Below are positions 15,751 through 27,495 of a DNA stretch of 38,698 nt, piece after piece. Location: the IMG/VR virus record IMGVR_UViG_3300043450_000149, positions 1-38,698 of that record, one strand, 5' to 3'. The stretch's first letter is position 1, and every line of letters begins with the position of its first letter. Made by a program: the position numbers and the translations under genes. The notes under the pieces were generated by a model. That model worked only from the letters and a program-made list of their open reading frames with translations. It had not been told where the DNA came from and searched no databases. This DNA comes from a virus.

Positions 15751-16857
15751 ATGCTGCCGATGATCTTGGGCTTTCTTGGGTCCGCCTTCGCCCCCGCTCT
15801 GGCCGGTGCAACAGGCATTGCGGCTCTTGCCAGCCCTCTTCTCGCGGGCTCTATCGGCACGGGGCTCGGCACGGCGATTGAGCAGAAAGACATCGGCGCG
15901 GGGCTGAAAGCAGGGCTCGGATCGTTCGTTGGCGGCAAGCTTGTCGGAGGTCTTATGGGCAGCACAGCTGGCGGTGCGATGGGCGCGTCTGCTGAAAATC
16001 TTGCTCAAGCTCAGGCGGCTGGACTTCCTGCCACGGCGGCCATGGCACCTCCGGTTCGACCGTCAACGGGCGGCGGCTTGTTTGGTTCAGGCATGCTCGG
16101 CCAAGGCATCCAGAGCGGTATGCAGTTCTCGCAGTCGCCGACAGGTATTGGCGCTTTGATGGGCGCGTCTTTAGCCACCCCACAGAAGACCATGGAGCTC
16201 CCAGAGACCCAGCCGACCAGCGCGGGCACCTCTGAGATGAAACCTATTCCACGCCAAGCTCAGTTCCCCGGTGCCGAATACATGCCCGGTGTGTCCCCTG
16301 AGTTCGACTACGGTGTGTCGACGCCCTATTCCTACGACGCGCTCACCGCCTATCGTGATCGCGGAGTTCTGCCCTACGCTGAGGGAGGTAAAGCTGAGAT
16401 CGAGATGGACGACGAAACGGGAGCCATGGAAGTCGAAACCAAGCGTCCTGTTGCGGGTAACGAGAAAACCGAAATTGTCGATGCAATCTCCGCCATTAAG
16501 GGTACGCACCCCCAGCCTGAGATTGCCCTTGGTAAGTTCCTTGCCAAGTACGGAGAAGATGCTCTTCGTGATCTGGTGGATTCTGTACAGTCTGGCGAGT
16601 TCGACGAAACGCTAGGCCGCTTCGCCAACGGCGAAAAAGGCGCGGTGCGTGGACCGGGCGACGGTTCTGGCGTCGACGACAAAGTCCCCGCCACCATCGA
16701 TGGTCAGCAGGACGTGCTGCTGGCAGACGGAGAGTTTGTTCTTCGCAAGGACGCCACCGACGCCCTCGAGAAGAAATTTGGCGGAGGGTTCCTCTCCTCG
16801 GTCAATGATGCTGGGTCCAAGGCACCCGATGCCCTTAAGAAGCGAGTTGCCGCATGA
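15751..16857 (+). CDS. Internal virion/structural protein with glycine-rich N-terminus
   Basis: This 368-residue protein has an N-terminal glycine-zipper-like hydrophobic region (about residues 1-85: LAGATGIAALASP, GTGLGTAIEQ, VGGKLVGGLMG) that could enter membranes. A Pro/Gln-rich middle follows. The C-terminal domain includes AISAIKGTHPQPEIALG, FLAKYGEDAL and the element RGPGDGSGVDDKVPATIDG leading to ADGEFVL (about residues 300-330). I recall that last GDG-x-DD-x-VPA-x-IDG-x-DGEFV element from internal or structural proteins of marine phages. Its position at the start of the internal-protein block fits. The mechanism is unknown. Confidence 0.55.
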   Translation: MLPMILGFLGSAFAPALAGATGIAALASPLLAGSIGTGLGTAIEQKDIGAGLKAGLGSFVGGKLVGGLMGSTAGGAMGASAENLAQAQAAGLPATAAMAPPVRPSTGGGLFGSGMLGQGIQSGMQFSQSPTGIGALMGASLATPQKTMELPETQPTSAGTSEMKPIPRQAQFPGAEYMPGVSPEFDYGVSTPYSYDALTAYRDRGVLPYAEGGKAEIEMDDETGAMEVETKRPVAGNEKTEIVDAISAIKGTHPQPEIALGKFLAKYGEDALRDLVDSVQSGEFDETLGRFANGEKGAVRGPGDGSGVDDKVPATIDGQQDVLLADGEFVLRKDATDALEKKFGGGFLSSVNDAGSKAPDALKKRVAA

Positions 16858-17327
16858 CACCTGACTTTGACACCGAAGAGTGGCGCGCGATGCGCGACCG
16901 GAAGCTCTTTGAGTGGACTCAGGACCGCAACGCTGTTTGGTTCATTCAGCAGTTTGGCGATATCTGCGAGGTGTTCGACGACCTCGTCGACAAGGACAAG
17001 CCCGTGACCGATGCCGATTTGGCTCGCACGCTGTTTGTCTGTCTGACCGAGCTGCCGGTGAATCCCTTCTTTGACCGCCACAAGGGCCAGCTCATCCCGA
17101 TCATCGTGACCGGCATCAACGCATGGCTGGATGCAAATACTTTGGAGAAGGGGTCAGACAACGACCGCGTGTTCTCCTATGTGCTTCGCGACTGGTATGC
17201 AGAACTGATCGCCTATGTTATCTATATATGCCGAGGGCGTGACTTCATGCGCTCTGTCAGCATGGAAGTGCGTCACCTATTCACGCACCACGAAACGCTT
17301 GAGCAATATCGGGAGGGCTTGGTATGA
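16854..17327 (+). CDS. Helical protein in the internal-virion block, unknown
   Basis: This 157-residue protein overlaps the preceding stop by ATGA, and its own stop overlaps the next start. It is predicted all-helical, with acidic and aromatic residues (WTQDRNAVWFIQQFGDICEVF, ARTLFVCLTELPVNPFF, YVLRDWYAELIAYVIYICRG). One hydrophobic helix near residue 120 could be membrane-associated. It sits between two internal-virion-type genes and is probably a scaffold or minor core protein. I do not recognise the family. Confidence 0.55.
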   Translation: MTPDFDTEEWRAMRDRKLFEWTQDRNAVWFIQQFGDICEVFDDLVDKDKPVTDADLARTLFVCLTELPVNPFFDRHKGQLIPIIVTGINAWLDANTLEKGSDNDRVFSYVLRDWYAELIAYVIYICRGRDFMRSVSMEVRHLFTHHETLEQYREGLV

Positions 17328-19555
17328 GCACCGGCGGAAGCAGCCAGCAGGCACCGACCCAACAGACCGTAACGCAGACGAACATCCCCAAGGAGTTCAT
17401 GCCTTACTTCGAGCGCCTCATTGGGCGCGGCGAAGAGCAGTCTCTGCAGCCATATCAGCCTTACGGTGCCCAGCGCATCGCTCAGTCTGGTGACGTCGCC
17501 GATATCAACGCATCGCGCGCTCTGACCCGCAACATTGCGGGCTCCGGCATTACGGGTCTGGCAACAGCCCAAGGCACCGCGATAGACAACATCGGCCTTG
17601 CGCGCCAGCTCGGTCAGTACGCGCCGGGCAACTTCACCGAGTTCGGTGGGTTCCAAGCAGGTCAGGCCTCTCCGTTCAGCGGCTTCTCCGCCACTCCGGG
17701 GCAGGGGTTCACGGGCTTTCAGGCTACGCAGGCATCCCCGTTCGCCGGGTTCGGTGCGACCCAAGGTCAAGAGTTCGGCGGGTTCCAAGCCGCACAGGCT
17801 TCTCCGTTCGCCGGGTTCGGTGAAACCCAAGGACGAGAGTTTGCTGGCTTCCAAGCTGGTCAAGCGTCCCCGTTCGCCGGGTTCGGTGAAACCCAAGGAC
17901 GAGAGTTTGCTGGCTTCCAAGCTGGTCAAGCGTCCCCGTTCGCTGATTTCCAAGCAGGGCAAGCCGCTCCGTTTGCTGATTTCCAAGCCGGTCAGGTGTC
18001 ACCGTTTGCCGACTTTTCGGAAGCGGGCTATCGGCAATATGAGTTCGGCCCGGCGGGGCAATTCACTGGCAGTGCAGTGGGTCAGTATATGGACCCATAC
18101 ATGCAGCAGGTCGTGGACGTAGAAAAGGCCAAGGCCATCGAGGACTACGGCATTCAGCGCGGTGCTCGCAACGCACGCGCGGTGCAAGCTGGGGCCTTTG
18201 GCGGCAGCCGTCAGGCTGTTCAGGAAGGTTTGGCCGAGCGCGATCTTATGGATCGTCAGCGCGACATTCAGTCTCGCGGGTTGTCGACCGCCTATGGCGA
18301 TGCCCAGCGCATGTTTGAAGCCGACCGTGCCGCCCGTATGTCCACGGAGCAAGCGCAGGCTGGCGAAGCAAGCCGCGTTCAAAGTGGTATCGCTGGAGAA
18401 GCCGCTCGTGTCCAACAGGCTCGCGCAGCAGAGCTTGCCCGCACGCAGGGTATCGGTATCGAAGAAGCGGCACGTGTCCAGCAGGCTCGCGCAGCCGAGC
18501 TGGCGCGCACTCAGGGTATCGGCATCGAAGAGAGCGCACGCGTACAGCAGGCCCGTGCGGCGGAGTTGGCGCGCACCCAAGGCATCAGCATCGAAGAGGC
18601 CGCCCGCATTCAGCAGGCACAAGCCGGAGAAGCCGCCCGCGTACAAGGCATGTCGCAGGAAGAAGCCGCTCGGGTTCAGGCCGCCCGCGCAGCGGAACTT
18701 GCACGCACTCAGGGCATTGGCATCGACGAGGTAGCTCGTATTCAGCAGGCGAGCGCCGCAGAAGCCGCTCGGGTTCAGGGCATGGCTCAGGAAGAAGCCG
18801 CCCGCGTGCAACAAGCCCGCGCCGCTGAGCTTGCTCGCACGCAAGGCATCAGTGTCGACGAAGCCGCCCGCATCCAAGCCGCGCAGGCTGGAGAAGCGGC
18901 GCGCGTACAAGGAATGTCGCAGCAAGAAGCTGCTCGCGTGCAGGCGGCAACCGCAGCAGAGCTCGCCCGAACTCAGGGCATTAGCGTCGAAGAGGCTGCC
19001 CGCGTCCAAGGCGGTCTGGCGGGGGAAAGCGCTCGCTTGCAGGCACTAGCTCAGGAAGAAAACGCTCGGGTGCAGGCTGCACAGGCCGCTGAAATGGCCC
19101 GCGTTCAGGGCATCAGCATCGAGGAAGCATCGCGCATTCAGGCTGCACAAGCCGCCGAAGCCGCACGGGTTCAGACTGGCACGGAAGCCTCTCGTCAGTT
19201 TGGCGCAGGTCAAGGTCTGGCAGCACTCGGTGCGGCTGGGTCAGAAGCCGGTCGTCTGGCAGCTCTTGGTGAGCAGGGTCGCGCTGCAGAAATCCAGAAC
19301 GCCCAGATGCTCGAAGCCATCGGCAAAGCTCAGCAGAGCGAGACCCAAGCGGGGCTTGATGTTGGCTATCAGGACTACTTGCGCCAGCAGGGATACTCTC
19401 AAGAGCAGATCGGCTTTATGGCGGACATGCTGCAGGGGCTCCCCGTGGCCCCCTCGTCGTCGCAAACGACACAGGGGTATCAATCTTACAACCCGCTCCA
19501 GCAGACGCTCGGTGCGGGGCTCTCGGCGCTGTCCCTCTATAAGGCGTTCCAATAA
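17324..19555 (+). CDS. Repeat-rich internal virion (ejection-type) protein
   Basis: This 743-residue protein has three zones. Residues 1-105 are a conserved head containing FMPYFERLIGRGEEQSL and YQPYGAQRIA. Residues about 108-232 hold repeats of mostly 22 residues rich in Gly, Phe and Gln (GFQAGQASPFAGFGETQG). Residues about 347-617 hold some 12 alternating 22-residue amphipathic helical units (EAARVQQARAAELARTQGI). Between them lies a helical segment (MDPYMQQVVDVEKAKAIEDY) typical of virion proteins in this gene position. The 22-residue helices equal two 11-residue hendecads, as in membrane-binding apolipoprotein repeats. I infer a DNA-ejection or core protein, but no profile match is verified. 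Confidence 0.55.
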   Translation: MSTGGSSQQAPTQQTVTQTNIPKEFMPYFERLIGRGEEQSLQPYQPYGAQRIAQSGDVADINASRALTRNIAGSGITGLATAQGTAIDNIGLARQLGQYAPGNFTEFGGFQAGQASPFSGFSATPGQGFTGFQATQASPFAGFGATQGQEFGGFQAAQASPFAGFGETQGREFAGFQAGQASPFAGFGETQGREFAGFQAGQASPFADFQAGQAAPFADFQAGQVSPFADFSEAGYRQYEFGPAGQFTGSAVGQYMDPYMQQVVDVEKAKAIEDYGIQRGARNARAVQAGAFGGSRQAVQEGLAERDLMDRQRDIQSRGLSTAYGDAQRMFEADRAARMSTEQAQAGEASRVQSGIAGEAARVQQARAAELARTQGIGIEEAARVQQARAAELARTQGIGIEESARVQQARAAELARTQGISIEEAARIQQAQAGEAARVQGMSQEEAARVQAARAAELARTQGIGIDEVARIQQASAAEAARVQGMAQEEAARVQQARAAELARTQGISVDEAARIQAAQAGEAARVQGMSQQEAARVQAATAAELARTQGISVEEAARVQGGLAGESARLQALAQEENARVQAAQAAEMARVQGISIEEASRIQAAQAAEAARVQTGTEASRQFGAGQGLAALGAAGSEAGRLAALGEQGRAAEIQNAQMLEAIGKAQQSETQAGLDVGYQDYLRQQGYSQEQIGFMADMLQGLPVAPSSSQTTQGYQSYNPLQQTLGAGLSALSLYKAFQ
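17804..17943 (+). repeat. Perfect 66-bp tandem duplication (74 bp matched)
   Basis: Bases 17804-17877 are identical to 17870-17943, giving a perfect period of 66 bp inside the Gly/Phe/Gln repeat region. No silent differences separate the two copies, so the duplication is recent compared with the diverged neighbouring units. Confidence 0.9.
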
Positions 19556-21180
19556 TGAACATCGTCCAAGTGCAAGACCAGCTGAAGAACTTCTCGCAGG
19601 ACCAGCTCGTGCGAGAGATGCAGTCGCCTACGGGCAACGCGCCGCAGTATCTTGTGCTGAGCGAGATCATGCGCCGCCAGCGCATGCAGCAGGACTTTGC
19701 TGCGCAGCAGGGCAAAAACGATCAGGGGACGGTGGCCCAAGAGGCTATCGCTGCCGCAGGCGTCCCTCAGGGCGGCCTTGCCAGCATGGCGAGCGCAATG
19801 GCACCTCAGACCGACATGGCCGAAAGCACCGGGGTGCAGGCTATGGCCGCAGGCGGCCCCGTCAAGAAGATGGCGAAGGGCGGCGCAGCAATGACCGATC
19901 CGGCCATCCGTGCGATGGCCAACCGTCTCGGGATGTCGGTGGAAGAATACCTGCGCTCCGTCGGAGATGAGCAGGCGGCGCAACTTGAACAGAGTGCCGG
20001 TGGCCGCGCACTGCGCGAACGTATGGTCGGCATGGAGCCGCAGCAGGCCTCTGGGATTGGCGGGGTGAATCCCTCTTACGTGGAAGACCTGACTGGACGT
20101 TTCCCGGTGAGCGGGTTCTCTGAGCCCGCCCCTCAAGTCCAGCCGATGACCTATGGCCGCCCTCTATCAGAAACTCTGGCTGCCAAAACGGGCACTCTGC
20201 TCCCCCCGACCCAAGACGTATATAGCCAGAAACTGTCCCAAACAGCAGACACCATGGACCAGCTGCGCGCAGAGCGTGCCCCTCGGCCCGCGCCTTCCGG
20301 GCGGCAATTGGCATACGAGCAGGCCCGAGCATCTGGCACCGCTGATCCTCTGGCCGCCATGGTTGATCCGGTCATGACAGGTCTCAGCGACTTTGGCGGT
20401 GCCGTCACAGGCCGAACCGTTGAAGAGCAGAAAGCCATTGACGCACAACGTGCAGCCGCTGCTGTCGGCGAAGGCCCGGCGTTTGAGCGCAAGGGGCGCG
20501 GTGCGCCAACTCTCGACGAGCTCCTTGCCGACAGCGCAGCAGAGGAAGCCGCAGCGCAGGAAACAGAGGCGGCGGCAGCCGGTGGAGTCGGCGGAGCCGG
20601 TGGAGCTGGGTCGGGAGGTGGCGGCGGGGGCATCGCCGGTGCAGGCGGCATGTCGTCTTATGAGCAAGAGCTTATGAACGCCCTTGGTCGCCGCGAAAAG
20701 GCCGCTCAGCAGGACAAGTGGCTGGCTCTGGCGCAGGTCGGCCTGAACATGATGTCTTCCACCAATCCCACGCTTCTCGGTGCGGTTGGCGAGGCTGGCC
20801 TTAAGGGTGTCGAGGCTGCACGTGCGGCGCGGGATCAGTATGACAAAGATCGTCTGGACCTCATGGGGGCCATTGAGCAGTCTCGTCTGTCCCGCGCAGC
20901 GGCAGCGGCCAAAGGCTCTGGCGGGGGCGGCAGCGCAGGGATCGCGGGGCTCAAGCTGAAGGACTATCTGTCCGCAGTTAACTCTGACATTGAGCGACTG
21001 GATACTCTGATTTCGGACGCATCCTCGGGCCTTGCAGCAACCACGCCGGAAGGCGAGATGCAGCTCGCCGAGATGCAAAATGAGCGGGGCCAGCTTGTCG
21101 CTCTTCGCCAGTCCCTGCTGTATGGCGCTCCGATTTCCGCAGATGGCGGCGACAACAACGTGGATGCGGCAGACGAATAA
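19555..21180 (+). CDS. Internal virion/structural protein, helical with Gly linker
   Basis: This 541-residue protein starts at a TAATG overlap. The N-terminal region (about residues 1-60) includes PQYLVLSEIMRRQRMQQDF, which I recall from large marine-phage virion proteins. It then has AAGGPVKKMAKGG (about residues 97-109), a low-complexity Ala/Glu-rich region, a glycine linker (about 342-364) and a helical C-terminal domain (YEQELMNALGRREKAAQQDKWL, then LAEMQNERGQLVALRQSLLYG). It lies between two ejection-type genes and probably forms part of the inner core or is injected with DNA. No catalytic motif is visible. Confidence 0.55.
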   Translation: MNIVQVQDQLKNFSQDQLVREMQSPTGNAPQYLVLSEIMRRQRMQQDFAAQQGKNDQGTVAQEAIAAAGVPQGGLASMASAMAPQTDMAESTGVQAMAAGGPVKKMAKGGAAMTDPAIRAMANRLGMSVEEYLRSVGDEQAAQLEQSAGGRALRERMVGMEPQQASGIGGVNPSYVEDLTGRFPVSGFSEPAPQVQPMTYGRPLSETLAAKTGTLLPPTQDVYSQKLSQTADTMDQLRAERAPRPAPSGRQLAYEQARASGTADPLAAMVDPVMTGLSDFGGAVTGRTVEEQKAIDAQRAAAAVGEGPAFERKGRGAPTLDELLADSAAEEAAAQETEAAAAGGVGGAGGAGSGGGGGGIAGAGGMSSYEQELMNALGRREKAAQQDKWLALAQVGLNMMSSTNPTLLGAVGEAGLKGVEAARAARDQYDKDRLDLMGAIEQSRLSRAAAAAKGSGGGGSAGIAGLKLKDYLSAVNSDIERLDTLISDASSGLAATTPEGEMQLAEMQNERGQLVALRQSLLYGAPISADGGDNNVDAADE

Positions 21181-21237: not shown

Positions 21238-24200
21238 ATGGGCACCATCCAGATTCCCGGTCGTGTTAGCGGTCGAACCTACAACGTCAAAATCAAGGGC
21301 GACAGCCCTTCCGAAACCGAAAAAGCTCGCATCAGTGCGATGGTTGAGGAACGCGAAGCGACGTTCGCTCAGCGGTATTCTGACCTTGTTGGCAAACCTC
21401 TTGCCGAGCCGGATGACGGCACTGCTCTTGGTCGCGGCATTGCGCGCGGCATGCCGCAGGCGAAGTCGGCCCTTGGCACCACGGTTGAAACCATCGGTCA
21501 GCAGCTGGGGCTTCCCAGCATTGCCAACTTCGGTCGCGGCATGGAGCAATCCGCCGAGGATCGTCTGTTCCAGCTGCAGTTCGAGCAGCCCGCCCCCACT
21601 CAGCGTCAAGACGTTACAGGCATAGGGTCGGCCCTAACCTATCTCGGGGAACTTGCGGGCGAACAGGCCCCACAGTTAGGGATTGGTCTGGCGGGCGGCG
21701 CAGCCGGTGCTGTTGCTGGCGGTCTTACGGCGGGCCCAGTCGGCGCTGTGGCAGGTTTTGGTGTCGGCTCCGGTCTCACCGAAGCTCCGATGCTGTTCGG
21801 CTCAAACGTGCAGCGTCAGGAAGAAGAAGTCGCAGCTGGCCGCAAGGCGTCTGTCGATCTCACCGATGCCCTCGAGGCCACCGTCGGTCAAGCCGCTCTG
21901 ACTTCCATCACGAACGCCCTTGGCGGTGCAGGCATCTTCCTGCGCCCCGGCGCAAAACTGTTCACCCGCGTAGCCGCAGGTGCCGCTACAGGTGCCGCTA
22001 CCGAAGGTCTTAACGAGATCGGGCAGCAGGTCCTAGAGCGCCATCAGGCTGGACTCCCTGTTGATACTCCCGACGCGATCCAAGAGTATATCGACAGTGG
22101 TATTGCAGGGGGCGTTCTCGGTGGCGGTGCTGGGGGCGTTGGCGGTATCGCTGGCCCTCGTCCTAAAGTCGCGGCTCCCCCCGCACCCACAGAGCCGACA
22201 GAAGCGATAGAAGAAAAGCCGAAAGCTCTGCCCGCGCCGCCAGTGGCAGCGTTGCCCGCTCCGGGCACTTTGGAACCCATGCCTGCGGCAAACGCGCCGA
22301 CAGTCGCTATTACTCCGCCCCCGCCCGAATCGGTTAGCGGCGGGCCGACGTCCAACGTGCCACGTGCGATGATGGAGAGCTTGGCAAGCGAGCCGCAGCT
22401 CATGGCCGCCGCTCAAGCCGTAGAGACGGCGGGCGAGGCGTCGACGCCTGTTGTGCAAAAAGCTCTTGGTGTCAGCTACCCTACAGCGCAGGGGATTTTG
22501 AAAAAGCTCGAGGGTGTTGGCGTCGTCTCACCGGCGGGAAAGAACAAGAAGCGGAAGGTCACGCTACCTGCCACCGTCGCGGAAATCCAAGCGGCCATCC
22601 CTGCGCCCAAAACGGCGGAGCAGGTGAGCCCTGCTACCGTAACCCTTCCTGAGGAGGTCAAAGATGTCCAGCCGCCTTCGGAAGCTGAACCAGCAGCAGT
22701 GGGAGTTAGCGCTCCAAGTGGTGCACCAGACGTGGCAGTCGAAGGAATCGACAGCAACGCTGCAGCCGCCGCCGGAGCTGTGCCACCTGAAGCCGAAGGA
22801 CTGGGAGGAAATCTGCCAAGCCCTGTGGATACTGGAGTGCCAGAAGGAGGCAAGCCGGATACACTGACGGCTCCGCCGACAGAGGTGCCAGCCGTCGCGC
22901 CCGGAGCTACTGCTCCAGTGCCGCCGAAGGCTCCGTCCACAACGCCTCGCCTCACTGCGACCGCAAACGAGCTGACTCTGCGCGATGCGGAGAAGGCCCT
23001 TGAACCGATGCGGCAGGTGCGCGAGATCGCTGACAACTCGGCTCTGCAGTCAGAGCTGAACTCCGCATGGGATGCTCGGTTCGCCGACAAGCCCGATCTC
23101 GCTGCCCTTGTGCAGGACTACGCCACGCCGGATGCGCTGGTGGCAGAAGACCCGACCACAGCCGACGACAAGCGCGCTGTTCTGAGCCTCTTCAAGCCCG
23201 GCGCAGTGAAGAAGGCCAAAAAGGGCCAAGCTCCCGCCGAGAACGCACAGAACTACTTCTCGCGGTTCAAGCGGCCCATCGACGCCCTCGAGTTCATGGT
23301 GGCCGATGCCACCTTGGAGAACCAGCGGTTCAAAAACCAGAAGGCCCTTGAAGCCGAGGCCGGAACTCTCCCGGCTGGCGACGAAGCGGTATCTCCGGTG
23401 GAACGCGAGTTCTTTGAAGGCATGAGCGCCGAGCGCGCCAAGGAAGCCCTTGCTTGGGTCGAAGCCAACATGTCTCCGCAGACTCAGGTCAAGGTGCGGG
23501 AGCTGCAGCGCAAATATCGGAAGGCGCAGGAAGCTAAGGTCCCGATGCGGGCCACGTCCTCTCTGCCCAGCTCTACCGCCATCGGCGGGCGCAGCGCCAC
23601 GCTTGACGAAAAGATGGAGTTCGAGCGGGAGCTCGACGTTCAGGCCAAGACCAAGGCCGCGCAGAAGGCTGAGACAAAGTCGCTCGTCTCCCTCGGCGGG
23701 AAGGGGCTCGACGCCCTGCTTGGCGCGGTCCAAGAGACCAAGGCCCCAGTGCAGAAACGCGCCGTCGGCATGCGCAAAATGACTCCGCAGGATCAGGAGC
23801 AATACGCTGTCGAGCGGATCATGGAGCTCAAGTTCAACCAGCCGGAAGACGTGCAGGTGCTCGATACACCGCTGCACCCGGCTGTTGTGAACCAGCTGCG
23901 GAAAGGCAACCTCGAGCTGGCCATCATGGCCGCCCGTTGGTATGCGCCGAGCGCGCGTGTCGCGCAGATCGCGAAGGCACTGCAGCCTTACGTCAAGGGC
24001 ACCCAAGTTCGGATCGAGACTGATCTTCGCGACAGCGACGGTGCGAAGCTGCACGGGCAGTACGTTTTCAACGGCACAGCGGGTACAAGTGAGGTTCTGC
24101 TGGACTCGGACTCCGGTCTCACTTTCGATACGCTTCTGCACGAGCTGATGCACGCGGCTACTGTGAACGAGGTCTTTTTCAAGAAGACCCCAACCCCGAT

Positions 24201-27200
24201 GCGGTCACGGCTGGAGAAGCTGTTCAACGAAACCCGCCCGCTCCTCGGCAGCGTGCTGGGAACAGAGAACCTTATGGAGTTCGTTGCTGAGGCGTTCAGC
24301 AACCCCACGTTCCAAGCGGAGCTCGCCGCCCTTCACCCGAAGGGTCGTCGGTTCTCTGCGTTCGACCGCTTCCTTCATGAAGTCACCAACTTCATCCGTC
24401 GCATTGTCGGGCTGCCGACCAAGGCTCCGACGAACGCGCTCGATGCTGTCGATCAGATGGTTTTCCAAATGATGACCTCCCCTATCGACAGCGACGGCGT
24501 CGGGTCCATGCGGAAGATCGCAACCCCAGAGGGCGCAACGGTGACCCTCAATCGCATCGCCGACATGGCAGGCTCGTTCCCTCCCCGCACCGCTGAGTTC
24601 GCGCAAGAGTTCGGCGATGAGGCTTCTCGCGTTATGTCCGGCCTCAGCGACACGGCCAAGCGCGGCGTTCTGGGTTTTATGGGCATGCAGGCTGTGGCCG
24701 ACGTAGCCAAGAACCTTGAGATCGAAGGTGCCTACGACCTTCAGATGGCAATGCAACAGCTCGATGCGGCCTCCATTAAGTCGGACAGCGAGGTCGATAG
24801 CGTCCTCAAGGTCATGACCGATTGGCTCAAGACGCACGGGGCGCGCAAGCCCATGTTTGACAAGGTGGTTACTCAGTCAACGCGCTACCAAGTCGATCCG
24901 GCTCTGTCGCCAGAAGCGGCCAAGAAGAAGTACGAGTCCAGCCCGGATAAGATGCGTGTCTACGCCGATCTTCAAAAGGACTGGAACGCTATCGGGCCAG
25001 AGGGGCGCAGCCTCTACAACCTCATGCGTGCCCTGTATCGCAAGCAGTATCTCCAGCTCCGCAAGGCGTTGGAAGGCAAGATCGATATCGCACTGGGGTC
25101 CAACCCGGAACTGGCATCCGAGGTCAAAAAGAGCATCTACGCCAAGTTCTTTGACATGAACAAGATCGAGCCCTACTTCCCCCTCGCTCGTAAGGGCGAC
25201 TTCTGGCTCGAATACAGCGCGTTCGACCCGGAGACCAACACCACGGAACCGGTCAAGGAAGTCTTTGAAAGCCCCCGCGCCCGCGACCGTGCGATGGCTG
25301 AGCTGCAGAGTTTCCCCGGCATCGTGAAGGATCAGACCGGCAAGCCCGTCTTCAACCTCTACACGTCTCTGGACATTGTGGAGCGCGGGCGCACGCCTGA
25401 CTCCTTGTTCGTCAAGGACACGATCTCCATCATCCGTGCCAACCTCGCGAACCAAGGCGTCTCGAAAGAAATCTCTGACGAGATTCAGCAAGAGATCACT
25501 CGCATGTTCGTCGAGGCTCTGCCGGAAACGTCGTTTGCCCGGTCGCTGCAGCGCCGTAAAGGCACCAAGGGTTACATCGAGGACAGCTTCGAGGCGTTCC
25601 GCCTCAAGGCGTACAGCCTCGGTCGGCAGGGCGTGCGTCACACCTATAGCAACCGCATCCGTGCGGTGACTGAGGGCATCCGCAATCAGGGCAAAAACAT
25701 CGACGATCCCAACAAGATCGCCATGATCCGCGAGCTGATTGCCCGTGCCGATTTCGCCACCAACCCGCCGCACAGTGCGTTTGAGCAGGCCATCCAGACT
25801 GTGAACCGTGCGGCCTTCACGTTCACCATCGGCTTCAACGTATCGTCGGCTTTGGTCAACCTCGCGTCGATCCCCACTGTCGTGGCACCGTATCTGGCTG
25901 GCCGCTACGGCATCGGCGGCACGGCGCTGCAGATCAGCAACGCATACAAGCTGTTCTTGAACAGCGGCATGTCTCGAAACCTTGAGCTGCCCGCGCAATA
26001 CATGGGCCAGTCCCAAGTTGAGGTGGCGGCAACCCCGTCCATCGACAACTACTTTGTGCTGAAGGAAGCCGAGGGTGGCACTGCCGAGTATGTCCTGCGC
26101 GACGACGTGCCTGAGAAGCTGCGTGCGGAGCTGGCTGATCTCGGCCCTCTGGTGGACGTTGCTGCCAAGAACGGGCAGCTGAACCGGTCCATCTTCTACG
26201 ACAGCATCGGTGCGGAAGAGGTCGGTCGCTCGCGCGGCCTTGCCGACAAGTTCTCGGCCTACAGTGGCTTCCTGTTCCACAACGTCGAACGCGCCAACCG
26301 TCAGGTGGCTCTGGTTGCAGCCTACAAGCTGGAGCTGGCTCGCATGCGCTCTCGCCCGACCAAGGCCGAGCGTGGCCTGACCGACGCACAGATGATGCAG
26401 CGGGCAGCCGAGAGCGCCGTGTACCAGACAACAGAGACGAGTGGCGGTGCGACCCTCGCCACGGCTTCGCGCTTCTCCCAGAAGGGCATCGGGCGCGCGG
26501 CTCTGATGTTTAAGAACTACGGCCTCACCCTCTTCTATCTTCAGATGAAGTTGGCCAAGCAGGTCGTGTTCGGCAGCAAAGACCCGGAGTTCACGCTGGA
26601 GATGCGTCAGGCCGCGTTCAAACAGCTTTTGGGCATCCAGCTCTCGTCCTTCGCACTGGCTGGCGTGTCCGGCGTCCCTGTGTTCGGCGGAGCGGCAATG
26701 ATCGCAAACGCCTTCCTCGGAGACGACGAAGAGGACGCCGAGATGATCACGCGGCGCTACCTCGGGGAAGGTCTCTACAAGGGCTTCCTGTCCGAGGCGC
26801 TGGGCGTCGACATTTCGTCCCGCATCGGTCTGACTGGGCTTCTGATCAGAGAGAACCGCTACAACACCAACCCGTCGGCGGAAGAGACCCTTGTCGCCAC
26901 TCTCGGCGGCCCTGCGTGGTCAACGACGACCAAGGTGGCCCGAGGCATCAATGAGTTCGCCGCAGCGATGACGGGCGGGGAAGGTGACATGGTTCGCGGC
27001 ATTGAGAACATGCTGCCCGCCTCGATTGGGAACTTTGTCAAATCGGCCCGCATCGGTGCAGAAGGCGGGGACATCGAAACCCGGCGCGGAGACCTCGTCA
27101 CAGGCGATCTGGGGGCACTTGACCTCATCGGCCAAGCCATCGGCTTCAAGCCTAACGAGGCGAGCCTGCAGCAAGACCTGAACCAGCTCAAGGTGAAGAT

Positions 27201-27495
27201 CAGCAAGGCTGTTGTCGAGAAGCGCTCCAAACTGTCTCGTCGGTACTACATCGCTGCCCGCGTCGGCGACATCGAAGGGATGAAAGAGGCCATGGACGAT
27301 ATCCGTGCGTTCAACGAAGACGTGGGCCAGCGCTACCCGGAAGCCCGCATCGACCGTGAGTTTTTGAAGAGCTCCCTCGAGAGTCACCAGAGAACCACTG
27401 ACACCATGGATAGCGGGGTGTCGATCAACCCCGTGGTGCGGGACGCACTGCGTGAGCTGTCGAGCCAATACAACAAAGGGCTGCAGCTTTTCTAA
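21238..27495 (+). CDS. Giant internal virion protein with winged helix and zinc-peptidase motif
   Basis: This 2085-residue protein is the largest in the window. Segments in order: a small N-terminal domain; a glycine-rich hydrophobic stretch (about residues 140-185); a Pro/Ala linker; an FtsK-gamma-like winged helix (about 380-445; VVQKALGVSYPTAQGILKKL, GVVSPAG); another linker; helical parts; a zincin motif H968-E-L-M-H972 with a downstream NLMEFVAEAFSNP element (about 1012-1024) that could supply the third zinc ligand; then about 1000 residues of helical domains with a hydrophobic patch near 1800-1830. Large podovirus internal proteins are ejected and may cross the cell wall, so a peptidase is plausible. 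An AAGGAG site fixes the start. Confidence 0.65.
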   Translation: MGTIQIPGRVSGRTYNVKIKGDSPSETEKARISAMVEEREATFAQRYSDLVGKPLAEPDDGTALGRGIARGMPQAKSALGTTVETIGQQLGLPSIANFGRGMEQSAEDRLFQLQFEQPAPTQRQDVTGIGSALTYLGELAGEQAPQLGIGLAGGAAGAVAGGLTAGPVGAVAGFGVGSGLTEAPMLFGSNVQRQEEEVAAGRKASVDLTDALEATVGQAALTSITNALGGAGIFLRPGAKLFTRVAAGAATGAATEGLNEIGQQVLERHQAGLPVDTPDAIQEYIDSGIAGGVLGGGAGGVGGIAGPRPKVAAPPAPTEPTEAIEEKPKALPAPPVAALPAPGTLEPMPAANAPTVAITPPPPESVSGGPTSNVPRAMMESLASEPQLMAAAQAVETAGEASTPVVQKALGVSYPTAQGILKKLEGVGVVSPAGKNKKRKVTLPATVAEIQAAIPAPKTAEQVSPATVTLPEEVKDVQPPSEAEPAAVGVSAPSGAPDVAVEGIDSNAAAAAGAVPPEAEGLGGNLPSPVDTGVPEGGKPDTLTAPPTEVPAVAPGATAPVPPKAPSTTPRLTATANELTLRDAEKALEPMRQVREIADNSALQSELNSAWDARFADKPDLAALVQDYATPDALVAEDPTTADDKRAVLSLFKPGAVKKAKKGQAPAENAQNYFSRFKRPIDALEFMVADATLENQRFKNQKALEAEAGTLPAGDEAVSPVEREFFEGMSAERAKEALAWVEANMSPQTQVKVRELQRKYRKAQEAKVPMRATSSLPSSTAIGGRSATLDEKMEFERELDVQAKTKAAQKAETKSLVSLGGKGLDALLGAVQETKAPVQKRAVGMRKMTPQDQEQYAVERIMELKFNQPEDVQVLDTPLHPAVVNQLRKGNLELAIMAARWYAPSARVAQIAKALQPYVKGTQVRIETDLRDSDGAKLHGQYVFNGTAGTSEVLLDSDSGLTFDTLLHELMHAATVNEVFFKKTPTPMRSRLEKLFNETRPLLGSVLGTENLMEFVAEAFSNPTFQAELAALHPKGRRFSAFDRFLHEVTNFIRRIVGLPTKAPTNALDAVDQMVFQMMTSPIDSDGVGSMRKIATPEGATVTLNRIADMAGSFPPRTAEFAQEFGDEASRVMSGLSDTAKRGVLGFMGMQAVADVAKNLEIEGAYDLQMAMQQLDAASIKSDSEVDSVLKVMTDWLKTHGARKPMFDKVVTQSTRYQVDPALSPEAAKKKYESSPDKMRVYADLQKDWNAIGPEGRSLYNLMRALYRKQYLQLRKALEGKIDIALGSNPELASEVKKSIYAKFFDMNKIEPYFPLARKGDFWLEYSAFDPETNTTEPVKEVFESPRARDRAMAELQSFPGIVKDQTGKPVFNLYTSLDIVERGRTPDSLFVKDTISIIRANLANQGVSKEISDEIQQEITRMFVEALPETSFARSLQRRKGTKGYIEDSFEAFRLKAYSLGRQGVRHTYSNRIRAVTEGIRNQGKNIDDPNKIAMIRELIARADFATNPPHSAFEQAIQTVNRAAFTFTIGFNVSSALVNLASIPTVVAPYLAGRYGIGGTALQISNAYKLFLNSGMSRNLELPAQYMGQSQVEVAATPSIDNYFVLKEAEGGTAEYVLRDDVPEKLRAELADLGPLVDVAAKNGQLNRSIFYDSIGAEEVGRSRGLADKFSAYSGFLFHNVERANRQVALVAAYKLELARMRSRPTKAERGLTDAQMMQRAAESAVYQTTETSGGATLATASRFSQKGIGRAALMFKNYGLTLFYLQMKLAKQVVFGSKDPEFTLEMRQAAFKQLLGIQLSSFALAGVSGVPVFGGAAMIANAFLGDDEEDAEMITRRYLGEGLYKGFLSEALGVDISSRIGLTGLLIRENRYNTNPSAEETLVATLGGPAWSTTTKVARGINEFAAAMTGGEGDMVRGIENMLPASIGNFVKSARIGAEGGDIETRRGDLVTGDLGALDLIGQAIGFKPNEASLQQDLNQLKVKISKAVVEKRSKLSRRYYIAARVGDIEGMKEAMDDIRAFNEDVGQRYPEARIDREFLKSSLESHQRTTDTMDSGVSINPVVRDALRELSSQYNKGLQLF
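21622..21637. promoter_or_regulatory. Palindrome copy with one mismatch (aTAGGG-TCGG-CCCTAA)
   Basis: Eleven of twelve arm bases match, with a 4-base spacer. It lies near the start of the 2085-residue gene and is the only copy found in the plus-strand arm. Confidence 0.35.

Follow-up and report, generated by a model that had tools for sequence, protein, structure and literature searches.

Gene Organization of the Locus

The analyzed window is the whole stretch of viral DNA, 38,698 nucleotides in length. The gene of the polyvalent-type, putative ejection protein occupies positions 21238–27495 of the plus strand and was confirmed to be one open frame encoding a single protein of 2085 aa, in agreement with the preliminary description of this DNA. 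The sequence AAGGAG is located just 5' of the ATG codon, and the stop codon is adjoined by a hairpin plus an A-run. The product is a giant modular phage protein of the polyvalent type, since several unrelated domains (FtsK_gamma, zincin, LPD39, and PLxRFG) are joined in one polypeptide. The modules follow one another in the order of a variable header, a Pro/Ala linker, an exchangeable slot, another linker, a zincin domain, and an LPD39/PLxRFG C-terminal region.

The giant gene comes after the structural genes, and the replication genes are located next to it on the opposite strand; such a location among late/virion genes is characteristic of polyvalent proteins. Three upstream genes of the plus strand, syntenic in relatives, are candidate partners in an ejection operon. 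They encode a Gly-rich protein of 368 aa (positions 15751–16857) with no family match in the PHROGs scan, a protein of 743 aa with internal repeats (17324–19555), and, directly upstream of the giant gene, a protein of 541 aa (19555–21180). The repeats of the 743-aa protein are degenerate (FAGFGETQGREFAGFQA), and a DUF3853 match was found at its residues 570–620. The ejection operon of podoviruses ends in a gp16-like gene (PMC8954989), and the gene order at the end of the structural operon of the window is similar. The best explanation of this arrangement is that the giant gene is the last and largest one of the structural operon and stands in the position of T7 gp16. Gene order and homologues thus suggest that the 2085-aa protein is present in the virion and, by analogy, is probably ejected with the phage DNA into the host.

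The Zincin Domain

The zincin domain was located at residues 870–1060 (positions 23845–24417, plus strand) using AlphaFold2 modeling, VIA-align, hmmsearch, and hhalign. The HELMH motif at residues 968–972 (24139–24153, plus strand) and the downstream NLMEFVAEAFSNP at residues 1011–1023 (24268–24306, plus strand), which holds E1014 and F1015, were found where they had been reported previously. At such a composition, 0.005 HExxH motifs are expected by chance, and the motif was present in 12 of 2000 shuffled sequences. No variation was found at H968, E969, H972, E1014, and F1015 among 62 distinct sequences including that of the window, some of them near-identical and all counted on a match to the zincin profile; thus, the HExxH residues of the motif are indeed conserved among homologues. 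The mean frequency of the top residue per column of the same alignment is 52%. Most of the 62 sequences were retrieved via the C-terminal region, others via the header, and none by the motif; therefore, HExxH was not a selection criterion. Frames that contain the C-terminal region and show no zincin match have their 5' end cut off, with the exception of L123, which is a frame-split record with the zincin on its other piece.

The AlphaFold2 model of residues 870–1130 has a mean pLDDT of 65.9, which is moderate, and its first 200 residues are modeled better. In this moderate-confidence model, a helix (37–50 in model numbering) is followed by three strands (53–58, 71–76, and 81–87), the helix with HELMH (94–111), and the helix bearing E1014 (143–152); an extra helix (118–134) sits between the two motif helices. 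Zincin-like metallopeptidases have HExxH together with a Glu farther downstream, on another conserved helix, as is the case here, and E1014 is likely the third zinc ligand.

The Pfam scan of the 2085-aa chain matched no known zincin family, and homology was therefore established via profiles and structure. An early search for relatives with the zincin alone as the query found none, and Foldseek with the zincin model gave nothing under E 0.001. According to the analysis in VIA-align, the most similar structure is the PhiM1 ejectosome chain 8vb2_A (Z 9.4), followed by residues 2124–2366 of the N4 vRNAP (Z 9.2), and the score falls to about 6 for the remaining zincins. In addition, hmmsearch showed a match of the zincin with 9sfn_G, annotated as “Internal virion protein” (E 1.9e-7), and phiKMV gp37 matches 9sfn_G across its full length. 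Analysis in hhalign gave 98.9% probability for N4-like vRNAPs and 97.5% for two Autographiviridae proteins. Judging from these profile and model comparisons, the zincin belongs to one group with its counterparts in the phiKMV and PhiM1 ejection proteins and in the N4 vRNAP. Together with the gene order, the homologues phiKMV gp37, PhiM1 gp48, and N4 vRNAP lend good support to the earlier designation of the 2085-aa product as an ejection-type protein.

Invariance of the motif is not a proof of peptidase activity, and proteolysis by this domain is presumed. A rather improbable alternative is that the zincin is a structural relic, that is, a metal-binding fold kept for the architecture of the ejectosome and devoid of peptidase function. 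It agrees with the place of the PhiM1 domain in an ejection protein whose tetramer was solved in the virion (8vb2), and with the main text of the PhiM1 paper, where no protease is mentioned. However, most of the fold varies, whereas E969, the presumed general base, shows the same invariance as the metal ligands.

A purely self-processing zincin, cutting the chain in virion assembly and freeing the header with the winged helix from the C-terminal region, appears about equally improbable. Iyer et al. proposed such a function for DdrB of phage P1, which is cut before packaging (PMC5512222), and the winged helix of the window protein is flanked by flexible linkers. On the other hand, the N4 vRNAP, one of the closest zincin structures, is packaged uncut (PMC5512222), and the zincin and the C-terminal region are joined in the relatives examined, apart from the frame-split L123.

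The C-Terminal Region

As for the C-terminal region, it begins with the LPD39 domain at residues 1133–1286 (positions 24634–25095, plus strand), matched by PF18858 with 43.8 bits against a Pfam cut-off of 27. The PLxRFG part at residues 1312–2066 (25171–27435, plus strand) is matched by NF032893 with 291.7 bits against a cut-off of 100. Hydropathy analysis indicated hydrophobic stretches at residues 1525–1555 and 1797–1828. The region is also matched by phrog_11358 and, at residues 1672–2073, by phrog_10089 (“DarB-like antirestriction”); it recurs across many phages in DarB-like or PLxRFG proteins. The pairing of the zincin with this C-terminal region was also found in Rhizobium phage RHph_TM29 and Serratia phage Parlo.

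These matches raise the question of whether the protein is an antirestriction protein of the DarB type that guards the entering genome, and this also seems improbable. The phrog_10089 match, the DarB-like annotation of the matching proteins, and the presence of a domain of DNA-binding type (the FtsK-gamma-like one) speak for it. However, only the C-terminal region is in common, so that the DarB label depends on the shared tail, and Pfam shows no methylase or SNF2 helicase domain, that is, no methylase–helicase core as in P1 DarB (the comparison covered phrog_10089). Identity with DarB was therefore rejected.

The description of the protein as simply an N4 vRNAP minus the polymerase is likewise not supported as far as the C-terminal region is concerned. 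Comparison of the C-terminal region with the C2 domain of the N4 vRNAP in hhalign gave a probability of 0.4% with shallow alignments.

The Header, the Slot, and Module Exchange

The header comprises residues 1–300 (positions 21238–22137, plus strand) and was characterized by phrog_6958, AlphaFold2, and hydropathy. The phrog_6958 family (virion structural protein) matches residues 52–241 (E 6e-13). An N-terminal beta-beta-alpha arrangement is followed by helices with a Gly-rich hydrophobic stretch at residues 147–177; AlphaFold2 confidence is limited to about residues 1–55. When genome contigs were scanned with the alignment of the header, no relative was detected. By composition, a Pro/Ala-rich linker was recognized at about residues 301–380 (22138–22377, plus strand; pLDDT < 50 for residues 299–372), and a second Ala/Pro-rich linker at residues 446–575 (22573–22962, plus strand). 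The pre-zincin region, residues 640–869 (23155–23844, plus strand), has no family match in the Pfam scan. Its identity to the window sequence is 48–76% in the close clade (L002, L009, L048, L050, L051, L053, and L055), 29% in L059, and 22% in L003.

Comparison of relatives showed that the header and the body are exchanged independently. The relatives L002 and L003 are 99% identical over the part corresponding to window residues 61–290 and only 17–35% identical from residue 641 on, whereas L009 and L048 are 24% identical over residues 61–290 and 79–94% identical from residue 641 on. The downstream primase gene of L003–L005 is about 77% identical to that of the window, although the bodies of their giant proteins are about 27% identical to the body of the window protein. 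This second body type is present in three contigs, and this speaks against a chimera produced in one assembly. The slot between the header and the zincin is occupied by the FtsK-gamma domain in the window clade and by another segment in L002–L005 and L013; several distant relatives contain slot segments that were judged by eye to be winged-helix-like.

Related headers were also observed on bodies of about 3000 aa (L006, L007, L017, and L019–L023), in which HExxH stands in another context (HEAVHAL, HEIIHAL) and the slot holds winged-helix-like segments. The proteins of L024–L027, of about 2470 aa, are related to part of the header and have no HExxH.

The FtsK-Gamma-Like Winged Helix

The winged helix is located at residues 386–443 (positions 22393–22566, plus strand), as defined by PF09397, phmmer, AlphaFold2, and structural matching. 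PF09397 (FtsK_gamma) matches residues 386–442 with 33.7 bits against the curated Pfam cut-off of 30.6, and phmmer finds FtsK-gamma structures (E = 2e-4). The AlphaFold2 model of residues 1–455 has a pLDDT of 91–96 across most of the winged helix. Its top fold match is 2ve8_H (Z 10.0, rmsd 1.6, 62 residues aligned), and the KOPS-bound 2ve9_B is next (Z 9.8, rmsd 1.4, 61 residues). Generic winged helices score Z 8–9, below the FtsK-gamma structures; therefore, the FtsK assignment leans on sequence and structure jointly. In comparison with FtsK gamma (2ve8, 2ve9, and 2j5p), the winged-helix fold is shared at about 30% identity and Z up to 10, so that the resemblance noted in the preliminary description holds.

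The FtsK-gamma domain was also found in five other distinct contigs (L009, L048, L049, L050, and L051), where FtsK_gamma is the best Pfam match, yet below the cut-off (E 1e-6 to 1.5e-4). It is confined to one small clade of relatives and is missing in L002, which is collinear with the window along its whole length, and in most other relatives; therefore, DNA binding by this domain is not essential to the family.

The domain had also been described as one that reads DNA polarity. In E. coli FtsK, the R1300A and E1303A substitutions impair the recognition of KOPS, to which E1306 contributes too (PMC2680272). These positions, located by alignment and counting back from residue 1329, are occupied in the window domain by G, K, and E, respectively. 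Each of the six distinct phage gamma domains has Gly or Lys in place of R1300 and Lys, Arg, or Gly in place of E1303, and E1306 is kept in each. The KOPS motif GGGNAGGG is not enriched in the window (6 found vs. 6.2 expected), and, unlike in FtsK, no motor domain was found in the 2085-aa protein. Therefore, FtsK-like polarity reading was rejected, and a role of the winged helix in recognizing a polar sequence of phage or host DNA, as FtsK gamma does with KOPS, so as to orient DNA entry or act on host XerCD, is very unlikely despite the fold close to the KOPS-bound FtsK gamma and the preserved E1306. The domain has the gamma fold without the KOPS-reading residues and, judging from the sequence and the model, is probably DNA-binding.

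In the record of Serratia phage Parlo (L039, 8034–8189; L044), a separate open frame of 112 aa gives the only FtsK_gamma match, which is above the cut-off. This frame lies elsewhere in the genome, away from the DarB-like gene.

Proposed Function and Comparison with Known Systems

The reading that we prefer, with a probability of roughly 60%, is a polyvalent-type ejection protein with a DNA-holding winged helix, an active zincin, and a DarB-like carrier tail. The header would send the chain into the virion and aid in crossing the envelope, and the flexible Pro/Ala linkers would allow the domains to thread the tail singly. The FtsK-gamma-like winged helix would grip double-stranded DNA without KOPS reading, most likely the phage's own DNA, packaged or entering. 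The zincin is assumed to be an active metallopeptidase working during or after delivery, with either its own chain or a host protein as the putative substrate. The LPD39/PLxRFG region may be a carrier common to DarB-like proteins.

Proteins of this kind are not new. Polyvalent proteins were described in 2017 by Iyer et al., with the zincin MPTase as their commonest domain and the FtsK wHTH as a rare one (PMC5512222). Accordingly, a DNA-reading module in such a protein, earlier regarded as unusual, can be called so only in part: the FtsK winged helix is rare, yet it is already listed for polyvalent proteins. The protein of the window shares with them the joining of unlike domains (zincin MPTase, LPD39, and FtsK wHTH) beside virion genes. 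Its clade-specific chain consists of an exchangeable header, an FtsK-gamma slot, a zincin of the N4/phiKMV type, and PLxRFG, a combination that may already stand in the 2017 set.

Among individual proteins, QIG67093.1 of RHph_TM29 has the same zincin motif (HEATHAAT...EEFVAEAFSNP) and the same C-terminal region; a search of the RHph_TM29 record for FtsK_gamma gave no match. The DarB-like protein of Parlo likewise has the same zincin motif (HELVHAAT...DELLAYGLTDP) and C-terminal region but differs in its length of 3764 aa and a second HExxH. The vRNAP of coliphage N4 is an ejected giant with loosely connected domains, including the HExxH-containing C1 and the helical C2 (PMC12633501). The succession of an N-terminal part, a linker, a central domain, HExxH C1, and helical C2 in this protein (gp50) is similar to that in the window protein (Z 9.2 for the zincin). 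Unlike gp50, the window protein has no central RNA polymerase (no single-subunit RNA polymerase domain in the Pfam, PHROGs, and NCBIfam scans of the 2085-aa protein), and C2 homology is not detectable. The same zincin is present in phiKMV gp37 and PhiM1 gp48, which are T7 gp16-like. Each of them is the largest ejection protein of its phage, with 1337 and 1263 aa, respectively, vs. 2085 aa in the window, and neither phage record has an FtsK_gamma match.

The zincin motif stays invariant throughout a large uncultured family and is found again in ejection proteins of three kinds; for two of these kinds, structures have been solved. It is tentatively suggested, as a possibility clearly less probable than the preferred reading, that an active zincin is a shared ejection module of podoviruses (of phiKMV/PhiM1, N4, and DarB/PLxRFG types) serving envelope passage, and that the DNA-contacting domain is an exchangeable cartridge, here FtsK gamma without the KOPS residues. 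If so, the zincin would be common to the ejection machinery, and the DNA-contacting domain at the front would be swappable.

The comparison also concerns the D268–D528 domain of PhiM1 gp48, which was published as endolysin/exotransglycosidase-like (PMC11440229). In this protein (L042, 2198–5989), the domain contains LLHEAAHAKT, with HEAAH at residue 385 and DTHEF downstream, and it aligns with the zincin of the window. The domain is likely a zincin, and its published description may need correction.
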